Shown piece by piece: positions 45,906 to 50,941 of a DNA stretch of 64,000 nt. The notes beneath the pieces are model-generated. The model was not told the origin of the DNA. It saw only the letters and a program-made list of their open reading frames with translations, and searched no databases. Each line of letters begins with the position of its first letter. The stretch's first letter is position 1. The DNA is from Prochlorococcus marinus CUG1438 (GTDB lineage: Bacteria; Cyanobacteriota; Cyanobacteriia; PCC-6307; Cyanobiaceae). Position numbers and translations under genes: made by a program. Location: positions 372,001-436,000 of the forward strand of contig JAEPLS010000001.1 of NCBI GenBank assembly GCA_017644325.1. Reading direction: 5' to 3'.

Positions 45906-47063
45906 TTAGGAACGAACCTGAACAGGCATGACTAAATAAGTAAAAGAATTCAGATTATCTTCTGGAACAAGTACAGCAGGAGTAGTTGCTAGATTACACT
46001 TCAAAAGAACGCTTTCAGAATTAATAACTTTTAAACCCTCTAAAAGATATCTGACATTAAATGCAATTTCAAAATCTTCTCCAGAATAATCAACAGGTAT
46101 TGACTCATTTGCATTTCCAATATCTTGTGCATCTGCACTTATTGAAGCTAGTTCTGTATTATCCAATTTAATTTTTACAACACTACTTTGCTGATCAGCT
46201 AAAACAGCAGTTCTCTCTAAAGCATCAATTAATTTTTTTGTATTAAAATTAAAAGTTTTAGAAAAAGTATCTGGAATTAATTGTGAATAATTCGGATAAG
46301 TACCCTCTAGTGTTCTTGTTGTAATAATTTGATTTGAAGAAATAAATACTACTTGACCCTTATCGTAAAAAAGCTTTATTGAACTTTCTGAGCTTTTTAA
46401 AGTTACTAGTTTTTCAATTTCCCTTAATGATCTAGTAGGAATAGTTACTGATAAATCATCTTCGTGTGAATTTAAGTTGTCTTTACTTTGAATATTTTCT
46501 TCTTTTCCAATTAATGAAACAGCTAATCTATGACCATCTGTAGAAGCAGATTCTAAATAATTTTGTTTAAAGGTAAAATTGACTCCAGTAAGCAACTGCT
46601 TTGAATCATCGCTACTACTTGCAAAAATTGTAGATTTCAAAGCTTTTAAAAAAGAACTAGGGTCAATATTTAATGAAGTACCACTTTCAACAAATGGTAA
46701 ATTGGGATAATCGTCTGAAGGTATGCCTTTAAGATTAAAAGAACCTCTATCACTTTTTATTAGAATATTATCTGAATTCTCATCTACATCTAAAGATACA
46801 GGTGTTTCGTTTGGTAACTTATTAACTATTTCAGATAAAAGTTTTGAAGGTATTGTAATAGCACCACTATTTTTTACAGTCCCATCAAAAGAAGTTTGAA
46901 TTCCTAAATTAAGGTCAAAACCTGTCAAACTAATTTTATTTGTTCCTTGATCTGCTGTTAAAAGTATATTTGCAAGAATTGGATGAGTTGGTCTAGATGC
47001 AACTGCTTTACTTACTAACTGAATAGCATTATTTAACTCATTTTGATTACAAATAATCTCCAT
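45906..47063 (-). CDS. dnaN: DNA polymerase III sliding clamp
   Basis: DnaN is the ring-shaped processivity clamp of the replisome. The 385-residue protein shows the three-domain clamp pattern, starting MEIICNQNELNNAIQLVSKAVASRPTHPILANIL in part, with TDGHRLAVS near residue 175 and the terminal YLVMPVQVR. Marine picocyanobacterial genomes are conventionally numbered from dnaN, and its upstream spacer is the best oriC candidate here. Confidence 0.97.
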   Translation of the reverse strand: MEIICNQNELNNAIQLVSKAVASRPTHPILANILLTADQGTNKISLTGFDLNLGIQTSFDGTVKNSGAITIPSKLLSEIVNKLPNETPVSLDVDENSDNILIKSDRGSFNLKGIPSDDYPNLPFVESGTSLNIDPSSFLKALKSTIFASSSDDSKQLLTGVNFTFKQNYLESASTDGHRLAVSLIGKEENIQSKDNLNSHEDDLSVTIPTRSLREIEKLVTLKSSESSIKLFYDKGQVVFISSNQIITTRTLEGTYPNYSQLIPDTFSKTFNFNTKKLIDALERTAVLADQQSSVVKIKLDNTELASISADAQDIGNANESIPVDYSGEDFEIAFNVRYLLEGLKVINSESVLLKCNLATTPAVLVPEDNLNSFTYLVMPVQVRS

Positions 47064-47400
47064 TGTATTTTGGATTTCCTTTACACACTAAATATACTTT
47101 TTTAGTTAATTAAATTCAATAAAGTAATTTTTTTCTTTCTTTCTAATATAAAAAATTAATATTAAAAAAAATTTAGTAGTAGTAGTTGCTGTTAAATCTG
47201 TGGAAATTTTTAAATTTAAATTTGTATCACTTGCTTTTTGAAGATTTAAAAATGTGAAAAAAATTTTTTATTTGTTGAATAATTTTTAAAGTTTACAAAA
47301 AATTTTTCTTTATTTAACAAATAGAATTACTTTTAAAGTTTTTTTCAACAGGAAAGATTAGTTTTTAATTTATTTCCACAGACACTAAATATTTTGGTTT
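47064..47400. other. Candidate replication origin upstream of dnaN
   Basis: This 337-base AT-rich spacer has no gene but several DnaA-box-like 9-mers. An 11-bp inverted pair consists of TCTGTGGAAAT (47197-47207) and ATTTCCACAGA (47372-47382). TGTGAAAAA (47253-47261) and TTTTCAACA (about 47342-47350) are single-mismatch versions of the cyanobacterial box TTTTCCACA. Long A/T tracts between them could be the unwinding element. In Synechococcus elongatus the origin is also upstream of dnaN. Origin function is inferred, not shown. Confidence 0.6.
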
Positions 47401-48504
47401 TTAATATCCTAAGATTTTTGTTATATCTTTTAACGAAGGTTCAATATTTTTTCTAAAAATAGCATCGTTGTTTTTAATAGCGCAATCAGGGTCTTTTAAT
47501 CCATTTCCTGTAAGTACACAAACAATTGTTGACTCTTTTTGAATTCTATTTTTATTTTTAATTAGTCCAGCAACTGATGCAGCACTTGCTGGTTCACAAA
47601 AAACCCCCTCTTTCGCCAAAACTTTATAAGCATTAATGATCTCTTCATCTGTTACTGACTGAAAATCTCCGTTACTTTCTTTTTTTACCTCTTTCGCTTT
47701 TTCTCTATTTACAGGATTCCCAATTCTTATAGCAGTTGCTATTGTTTCTGGATTCTTAACTATTATATTTTTTACTAACGGGGCAGACCCTTCAGATTGA
47801 AAACCCATCATCAATGGTAATTTTAAATTTCTTTTTATTTTTGAATATTCTTTAAATCCTAACCAATATGCAGTTATGTTTCCTGCATTACCCATTGGAA
47901 TACAAAGCCAGTCAGGCATAAAACCCAAGTCATCTACAATTTCAAAAGCGGCTGTTTTTTGGCCTTGAATACGATAAGGATTTACAGAATTAACAAGTTC
48001 TATTGGATGTTCAGAAGATAAATCCCTTACAATTTCTAGAGCTTTATCAAAGTTACCATTAATAGATATTATCTCAGCTCCATACATTAAAGCTTGCGCA
48101 AGCTTTCCTTGAGCAACGAACCCTTCAGGGATTAAAACATATGGTTTTAATCTTCCTCTTGAGGCATATGCAGCAGCAGCAGCAGAAGTATTTCCAGTAC
48201 TTGCACAAATAACTGCTTCTCGACCATCTTCTTTTGCTTTGCTAATCGCCATTGTCATACCACGATCTTTAAAAGATCCTGTAGGATTTAAACCATCATA
48301 TTTTAAAAAGACCTTTGTTCCATTACCTATTAATTTGCTAATTGATTCGCTGAGAATTAGAGGAGTGTTTCCTTCATTTAGGGAAATAATTGGCGTTTTA
48401 TTTGTAACTGGAAGATATTGTTTGTAAGCTTCGATTAAACCTGGCCATCTTTTTTTTCTGTAATTTATATGTAGTTTATTTTTAATCTTATTTAAAAAAC
48501 CCAT
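47401..48504 (-). CDS. thrC: Threonine synthase
   Basis: ThrC converts O-phosphohomoserine to threonine with PLP. The 367-residue protein has the PLP lysine in [11 protein letters not shown] near residue 60, the phosphate-binding [12 protein letters not shown] and [12 protein letters not shown]. The length fits the short bacterial type. Its start lies six bases from the upstream DUF1400-like gene, so they may be co-transcribed. Confidence 0.96.
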
Positions 48505-49084: not shown

Positions 49085-50941
49085 CTAGATATTCGCACCA
49101 GCTGCAATTTTTACGATTCTCACCACTCCTTTTTCTGTAACTTTTTTTGCAATTTTTATGCCCATTTCCTTTGTATAAGGTTCGTTTATGAGTCGAGGAA
49201 CTCTTTTTAGAAAAATATTAATCGAATAACCTGGTATTTTTTCTAAAATTGCCAAAAAGTTTCTTAAGGGTTCAATATACATTATAAGATCATTCAAATT
49301 GTTATTTTCATTTGTCACATTTAATTTGATCGAGTTTGGGAGGTACTTATTCAAATTTTTTAGTATTTTTAAACTTAATGAATCAATTTGATTTGTTAAG
49401 CTTTCAATTATTTCATTCCTAAGAAAACCACCTTTTTGGGAAAAAAGAAGATTAATTACTTCATCTAAAAGCTTTTCCAAGTCGAGGTTTGTCTGTTTTG
49501 CAGCGTTAGAAAGTAGGTCTTCCAAACGGTCCCATTTGAATTTTTTATCATCAAAAAGCATTTCTTTCAAGCTTTCTCTTAGTTGTGGATCAGAATCTTC
49601 CATCAATCGCCTGGCAAAATATGGATAAGCTGCGCCTAATATTTTAAAGTTTGGGTCTACACTTAGTGCAATTCCCTCTAGTGTCAGTAGTGATCTAATT
49701 ATGAGAGCATAATATGGAGGCAATCTAAATGGAAATTTATACATTACTCCTGACATGTCATCTGTGACACTTTTGAAATCCATTTTTGAAACTCCTTGTT
49801 CAACAGCATTAATAAAAACTTCTTGAAACGCTGGAACAATAGGTTCAAGGTTAACCTCTTCGGATAAGAATCCTAGTTTTACAAAATCTTGAGACAACTT
49901 ATCGAAATTTTTATTTACTAAATGTACTACTGCTTGTATTAAACCTGATCTAGAGTCTCTTGACACTTCACTCATCATTCCAAAATCTAAATAACATAAC
50001 CTGCCATCTTTTAAGGCTAATAAATTACCTGGATGTGGATCAGCATGAAAAAAACCATGCTCTAAAAGTTGTTCTAAACTGCACTGCACTCCTATATCAA
50101 TCATTTTATCTGGGTCAATGCCTAATTTTTTTACATCTTCTAAATTTGTCAATTTTGTCCCTTCGATCCATTCCATTGTTAAAACTCTTCTAGATGTTAT
50201 TTTTTTGTAAATCTTTGGTACAGCGATCATTTGATTATGTTTATGCATATTTCTAAACTTTTCTGCATTTTCAGCTTCGTTTAAATAATCCATTTCTTCA
50301 AAGACTCTTTTGCCTAATTCATCAATTAATGCCACCAAATCGCTCCTTATTAATCCAATATTATTTTTTAACCAATAAGCAATATTTCTTACTATGTACA
50401 GATCTAAAGTTATTTGTTCTCTTAAGCCTGGTCTTTGGACTTTAACTGCAACAACCTCTCCATTTTTTAATTTAGCTTTGTGCACTTGTCCTAAAGAAGC
50501 AGCCGAAATTGGCTCTTTGTCAATTTCTAAATAAATTTCATCTACTTTGGAACCTAAATCTTCTTCTATTAATTCCATAGCCTTATCTCCATCAAATCCT
50601 GGCAATTGATCTTGTAATTCAGATAATTCCTCCAGAAGAATTCCTGGAATAATATCTGGTCTTGTAGATAAAGCTTGACCTGCTTTAACAAATGCAGGTC
50701 CAAGTTCTACTAATAATTTTGTCAATTCTTTAGCTCTATATCTTGCTTGTTTTTTATTCTTTAATCTTCCTGTTAATTTATCCCATCCAATAGAAAAAAT
50801 ATATGCAAAAATTGGAATAAGTGTTTGCCAGAGTCTTTTCAGCAGTCTATTTGGATTTTTTTTATAAATCTTAGAAATTGCTTCTGGATCATAATCAAGT
50901 AGTCCAGATATTTCTATAAAATCGGTAAAATCTTCATTCAT
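49085..50941 (-). CDS. ABC1/AarF/UbiB-family atypical kinase
   Basis: This 618-residue protein has the family KxGQ motif (FVKAGQALSTRPD near residue 88), the A-rich loop AASLGQVHKA, the catalytic HADPHPGNL near residue 295 and the DFGMMS metal-binding segment. C-terminal hydrophobic helices suggest membrane association. Family members support quinone (plastoquinone, ubiquinone) metabolism and stress response; the exact target here is unknown. It is divergent from recN with 68 bases between. Confidence 0.92.
   Translation of the reverse strand: MNEDFTDFIEISGLLDYDPEAISKIYKKNPNRLLKRLWQTLIPIFAYIFSIGWDKLTGRLKNKKQARYRAKELTKLLVELGPAFVKAGQALSTRPDIIPGILLEELSELQDQLPGFDGDKAMELIEEDLGSKVDEIYLEIDKEPISAASLGQVHKAKLKNGEVVAVKVQRPGLREQITLDLYIVRNIAYWLKNNIGLIRSDLVALIDELGKRVFEEMDYLNEAENAEKFRNMHKHNQMIAVPKIYKKITSRRVLTMEWIEGTKLTNLEDVKKLGIDPDKMIDIGVQCSLEQLLEHGFFHADPHPGNLLALKDGRLCYLDFGMMSEVSRDSRSGLIQAVVHLVNKNFDKLSQDFVKLGFLSEEVNLEPIVPAFQEVFINAVEQGVSKMDFKSVTDDMSGVMYKFPFRLPPYYALIIRSLLTLEGIALSVDPNFKILGAAYPYFARRLMEDSDPQLRESLKEMLFDDKKFKWDRLEDLLSNAAKQTNLDLEKLLDEVINLLFSQKGGFLRNEIIESLTNQIDSLSLKILKNLNKYLPNSIKLNVTNENNNLNDLIMYIEPLRNFLAILEKIPGYSINIFLKRVPRLINEPYTKEMGIKIAKKVTEKGVVRIVKIAAGANI

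Follow-up and report, generated by a model that had tools for sequence, protein, structure and literature searches.

A candidate DnaA-box and DnaA-trio unwinding module in the thrC-dnaN spacer, the probable replication origin of a Prochlorococcus chromosome

Many cyanobacteria either show no clear GC skew or do not need DnaA, and a signature that marks the site at which DnaA opens the chromosome would therefore be useful. The AT-rich spacer upstream of dnaN in a Prochlorococcus genome raises this question directly: is it the origin of replication (oriC), and if so, which of its bases would DnaA engage? Prochlorococcus origins were placed in 2010 between the genes for threonine synthase and the polymerase III beta-subunit, using GC skew together with DnaA-boxes (PMC2836286), so the site itself is not new. 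Cyanobacterial origins in general have been listed beside dnaN with TTTTCCACA boxes (PMC4674748).

The stretch of DNA analysed here (the window; 64 kb, C1:372001-436000) belongs to a genome of 1.63 Mb in 4 contigs with a computed completeness of 100%, which encodes an intact DnaA (a 464-aa frame matching PF00308 and PF08299). By dnaN, its nearest named relatives are Prochlorococcus genomes (best identity 94%). The spacer has a GC content of 17.2% versus 31.2% for the whole window, and no open reading frame of at least 60 aa was found between 47064 and 47400, in agreement with the first-pass annotation, which called this stretch ahead of dnaN AT-rich and free of genes. The gene on its other side (47401-48504) is presumably threonine synthase, a name based on gene order. 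Neither the dnaN region (L001) nor the DUF2811 locus discussed below (L151) matched an Rfam family at an E-value cutoff of 1. Among the loci compared, several separate assemblies seem to break at almost equal distances downstream of dnaN, one group at approximately 10.5 kb (L010, L048, L054, L082, L085) and a second at approximately 5.2 kb (L016, L028, L045, L053, L084). The features of the region are as follows.

45906-47063, minus strand: dnaN, sliding clamp, with three beta-clamp Pfam domains
47064-47400, no strand: thrC-dnaN spacer, the candidate oriC; 337 bp (329-347 bp in 77 named loci)
47091-47119, minus strand: TTGAAT-17-TATATT, probable promoter of dnaN, lying between the trios and the gene; -35 without variation in the 78 aligned spacers
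47130-47173, minus strand: AT-tract beyond the trios, presumably the first stretch to open; far end placed by eye
47174-47185, minus strand: putative DnaA-trio run CTACTACTACTA, i.e. (CTA)4, with 3'-GAT-5' on the opposite strand
47190-47198, minus strand: position of a second tandem box, apparently decayed to GATTTAACA, placed by anchored comparison
47199-47207, minus strand: DnaA-box ATTTCCACA of the putative unwinding module, pointing to dnaN
47253-47261, minus strand: weak box TTTTTCACA, on the upstream side of the box at 47199-47207 at a distance of 54 bp
47342-47350, plus strand: weak box TTTTCAACA; mean column conservation 0.981
47372-47382, plus strand: distal DnaA-box ATTTCCACAGA, head-to-head with the proximal box; mean column conservation 0.986
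47401-48504, minus strand: thrC-like PLP enzyme (PF00291), bordering the candidate origin

The 11-bp sequence ATTTCCACAGA is present as an exact inverted pair (47207-47197 on the minus strand and 47372-47382 on the plus strand), just as the first-pass annotation had stated for 47197 and 47372. When the spacer was shuffled 2000 times with dinucleotides preserved, two strict boxes, [AT]TTTCCACA, never arose; in 24 of the 2000 some 11-mer with four or more G/C recurred in inverted orientation. Across the whole genome there are 36 such strict sites (22 + 14), and adjacent strict boxes lie no more than 200 bp apart at three places versus 0.15 expected (P about 0.0005), one of the three being the spacer. 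The one-mismatch boxes reported at 47253 and 47342 are likewise there, TTTTTCACA and TTTTCAACA each differing from TTTTCCACA at one base, and the spacer holds no perfect TTTTCCACA. Loose boxes of the form TTWTNCACA are not enriched in the window (10 versus 11.5 expected), so the one-mismatch boxes count solely through their conserved position. The arrangement is that sought in an oriC, a cluster of DnaA-boxes in an AT-rich intergenic spacer adjoining a replication gene.

What the first-pass annotation had overlooked is the run of CTA repeats. The genome of 1.63 Mb has a single (CTA)4, the 12 bp at 47174-47185, and 2000 shuffled versions of the spacer produced none. Read on the dnaN strand, it follows the box at 47199-47207 after a gap of 13 bp and is itself followed by the AT-tract. 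This order is that of the basal origin unwinding system (BUS) of Bacillus subtilis, which combines DnaA-boxes with DnaA-trios; given its native box and trio sequences, Synechococcus elongatus DnaA opens the strands in vitro and needs both elements to do so (PMC8287927). BUS modules have been predicted in 1755 of 2070 origins, with a box-trio gap that peaks at 10-13 bp and was searched up to 16 bp; the commonest published arrangement (57%) places a second, tandem box before the trios, which is not obligatory (PMC8287927). By the definition of at least three trios, in the right polarity and no more than 16 bp from a box, the spacer qualifies with its four CTA repeats and 13-bp gap. A second tandem box is missing here, its position reading GATTTAACA; it is box-like in most relatives, which often read GTTCCCACA or GTTTCCACA.

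Conservation was followed through Prochlorococcus-type spacers. A thrC-dnaN spacer was obtained from 77 of 80 named loci (L040 and L046 were dropped as too short, and L068 for want of a thrC match), and the alignment comprised 78 distinct spacers including that of the window, with motifs counted anywhere in the spacer. A scored box-trio search was run with the template CTACTACTA, which was picked after viewing the window and the BUS literature; a match is a score above those of all 100 shuffles, and the opposite strand served as control. The window matched (1/1), as did 74 of 77 named loci, with 0/1 and 0/77 on the opposite strand. Within the 78 spacers, (CTA)4 is present in 65 and (CTA)3 in 73, the distal box core TGTGGAAA in 73 and TGTGGAAAT in 68, and TGTTGAAAA, belonging to the weak box at 47342, in 70. 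Of the 73 spacers that have (CTA)3, 67 carry, 53-54 bp ahead of the BUS box, a 9-mer no more than one mismatch from TTTTCCACA (best 9-mer at 50-57 bp). Conservation of the boxes, which the first-pass annotation had proposed as a check, is seen in form though not in every letter: the box-trio match recurs in nearly all named loci and the form [AT][AT]TTCCACA on the dnaN strand in 76 of 78 spacers, but the exact letters ATTTCCACA stand on that strand in 16 of 78, AATTCCACA being the commonest form at that position. Judged by letter conservation, same-size windows do as well as or better than the trio run in 5.2% of cases, the distal box in 6.1% and the dnaN -35 in 3.9%; the BUS box is matched or beaten by 20% of windows and the 47253 box by 46%, neither being outstanding.

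Beyond the genus, 40 upstream regions were selected from 146 other dnaN-matching genomes of the family, across genera and including three of the window's own genus, on condition of enough upstream sequence. For the class, 30 genomes were chosen, comprising 29 of a 146-genome class sample and the family genome G018; G265 yielded no dnaN and L290, a second G253 domain hit, was left unused, leaving 26 genomes with and 3 without dnaA. Box-trio matches were found in 35 of the 40 chosen family genomes (opposite strand, 4/40) and in 15 of the 26 chosen dnaA-bearing class genomes (opposite strand, 1/26). An anchored view, in which every sequence is shown at its best box-trio position (not a test in its own right), displays in the family a box, a second box and CTA/CGA/CGG repeats, approximately 120-225 bp before dnaN where the sequence matches. 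Many class matches have two tandem boxes, a GCCC-like gap, three to four CTA repeats and inverted box arrays further up; where an upstream box is readable in other class families, its distance to the BUS box is 53-56 bp. The module lies as far as approximately 520 bp from dnaN in class genomes, its internal spacing unchanged.

A strict tandem-box-plus-trio motif proved too narrow, failing the window itself because its second box has decayed. It was found in 27 of 78 spacers, 29 of 40 family genomes, 12 of 26 dnaA-bearing class genomes and 0 of 3 lacking dnaA, with reversed and opposite-strand controls at 0; the scored search was chosen afterwards, and the two should be read together.

The remaining 11 of the 26 dnaA-bearing class genomes had no match at dnaN (three with boxes but no trios, eight with no strict or near-strict box), so the site is not universal. 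The eight loci (L271, L272, L274, L278, L281, L284, L285, L289), three of them from genus g64, have no strict or near-strict box within 900 bp upstream of dnaN; in class genomes of this kind the origin may lie elsewhere.

Genomes that lack dnaA offer a further comparison. In the family, 124 genomes have a completeness of 90% or more and a contamination of 5% or less; one of these, G018, lacks the DnaA C-terminal domain, as do three less complete family genomes. In the class sample dnaA is absent from 3 of 146 genomes, two of which have a detectable dnaN and neither of these a box-trio match. Counting G018, the matches among dnaA-lacking genomes with dnaN come to 0 of 3, which is in the direction predicted for a DnaA-dependent site and suggests, for three genomes only, that the module goes with DnaA. 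The thrC-dnaN spacer of G018 measures 150 bp versus 336-605 bp in the 38 others measured (1 of 40 had no thrC match), and the one perfect box that it has falls outside the spacer, at -209. This genome (L115, L267), 95% complete, has neither dnaA nor a box-trio match and gave no hit for DUF2811, and may have lost the entire set naturally. In G265, a single contig rated 99% complete, dnaA, DUF2811 and the beta-clamp N-terminal domain were not found; its lack of dnaA and dnaN may be a matter of assembly or masking.

GC skew was computed over sampled stretches. On contig 1 its mean is -0.044 to the left of the site (dnaN side) and +0.018 to the right (thrC side; p 0.03). G070, from the same genus, is assembled as one contig starting at dnaN; its two halves average +0.045 and -0.027 (p 0.008), and the samples flanking dnaN, approximately 108 kb apart, read -0.09 and +0.11. 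The skew check suggested by the first-pass annotation came out mixed: there is a weak sign change at dnaN, but fourfold degenerate sites show no difference in either genome (p 0.45 in both), and the cumulative minimum within the window falls at 50788, 3.4 kb away. Given the null at fourfold sites, the total skew signal may stem from gene content. We assume that Prochlorococcus falls within clades C-G. A V-shaped skew is described for most species of those clades (PMC7198777), and in HL strains synonymous codon use is without perceivable strand asymmetry (PMC2836286), in agreement with the fourfold result.

The thrC-dnaN spacer is very probably the oriC of this Prochlorococcus chromosome, as the first-pass annotation had proposed on fewer elements; the box-trio matches in 74 of 77 named loci support this reading, which is drawn from sequence comparison, and the weak change of sign in total skew agrees with it. 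We infer the biochemical steps, i.e. DnaA binding, unwinding and firing at the spacer, to run as follows. DnaA would bind the scattered boxes, some of them inverted, in double-stranded form, and from the box at 47199-47207 a DnaA filament would be guided onto the CTA repeats 13 bp on, gripping the complementary 3'-GAT-5' strand as a single strand. The adjoining AT-tract would then be opened for helicase loading, and forks would depart both ways.

The same spacer could instead be a regulatory region of dnaN at which DnaA acts as a transcription factor, with replication starting elsewhere. A promoter-like TTGAAT-17-TATATT does lie between the trios and dnaN, its -35 is invariant and its conservation equals that of the boxes in the 78 spacers; the region has 2 promoter-like sites versus 3.6 in shuffles, so no excess. 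However, a distance of approximately 55 bp separates the end of the trios from the -35 downstream and the order of elements suits strand opening, the skew changes sign at the site, and in the class the module keeps its internal spacing even when far removed from dnaN. We consider this alternative improbable. The position of the promoter downstream of the box-trio module implies that the two functions would be spatially separate.

The other two close strict-box pairs of the genome, both outside the window, lie upstream of its two DUF2811 genes.

C1:708052-708115 (L009 1490-1553): box pair upstream of DUF2811
C3:176783-176911 (L181): box pair upstream of the DUF2811 paralogue

The first of these has two perfect inverted TTTTCCACA 44 bp apart as well as TTTTTCACA, nearer to consensus than the boxes at dnaN, and might for that reason be taken for the true origin. 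Against this, the tandem-box-plus-trio motif is found upstream of DUF2811 at none of the 50 loci of the family and at 2 of the 40 of the class (it also fails in the spacer of the window), sampled skew averages +0.015 between 419 and 708 kb and +0.022 beyond with no change at 708 kb, and a second such box pair stands at the paralogue. That replication starts at the DUF2811 locus is accordingly a very remote prospect. As for the reading that the spacer holds nothing but unselected short matches in AT-rich DNA, loose boxes are indeed no commoner than expected in the window, but neither the two strict boxes nor (CTA)4 arose in any of the 2000 shuffles and the elements recur in genera with spacers of 26-66% GC, leaving chance a negligible explanation.

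With the spacer kept as the probable origin, the DUF2811 boxes are of interest in themselves. A family set of 50 loci (30 best matches and 20 chosen) was searched within 450 bp upstream, and a class set of 40 loci, chosen across families among the matches listed, over a longer stretch of approximately 750-860 bp. Perfect TTTTCCACA boxes were present at 37 of the 50 family loci, with no hit for the reversed pattern, and at 36 of the 40 class loci, which have 91 boxes versus 0.27 expected and 3 reversed-pattern hits; the boxes are most often 21-22 bp apart. The class loci without boxes are those of G162, G157 and G207, which have dnaA, and of G271, which lacks it. Among the matches listed, DUF2811 is absent from 2 of 3 dnaA-lacking class genomes (G265, G277) and from 2 of 143 dnaA-bearing ones (G173 and G272, assemblies of 380 and 460 contigs), a co-absence with p 0.0017 that becomes 0.04 if G265, a doubtful case, is left out, both values without correction for kinship. 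In a family subset (n = 61) it is absent from G018, which has no dnaA, and from three dnaA-bearing g8 genomes. DUF2811 had no match among PDB sequences or phages, and a full-text literature search found no paper on it. Homologues of seqA, dam and hda are reported absent from Prochlorococcus PCC9511 (PMC2921402). From the pattern of boxes, the three pairs could conceivably form one circuit in which DUF2811 is a DnaA-controlled or DnaA-titrating partner in initiation that fills the seqA/dam/hda gap, a proposal that we hold tentatively, at somewhat less than an even chance. The association is a lead rather than a result about the window; if real, it would be a candidate DnaA control circuit in cyanobacteria.

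What is added here to the known site is the predicted BUS module in the spacer, which recurs widely and is missing from three genomes that lack dnaA. The box-trio module together with a box approximately 54 bp upstream would provide, for much of the class sample, a signature of the kind called for at the outset, and its absence from the three genomes suggests that dependence on DnaA may be readable from sequence. For Prochlorococcus, in which replication follows the day, the module names the bases to test.

Compared with the 2010 prediction (PMC2836286), the place is the same, whereas the available part of that report does not name a trio or BUS and gives no box positions. Prochlorococcus is unmentioned in the accessible main text of the DnaA-trio papers PMC8287927 and PMC10225481, whose supplements may list it. 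With the BUS of B. subtilis (PMC8287927) the spacer shares a box, a short gap that is likewise 13 bp, 5'-CTA repeats, an AT-tract and their polarity; it differs in that the second tandem box has decayed. The gap itself has 4 of 13 positions G/C, in contrast to the GC-rich gap of most relatives. Relative to the origins of Cyanothece, Anabaena and S. elongatus (PMC4674748), there are fewer and weaker boxes, none a perfect TTTTCCACA, but the position adjacent to dnaN and the box family are the same, and the distance of 54 bp between the upstream box and the BUS box falls within the 53-56 bp seen in other class families. The spacer looks like a reduced oriC homologous to the dnaN-linked origin of other cyanobacteria.
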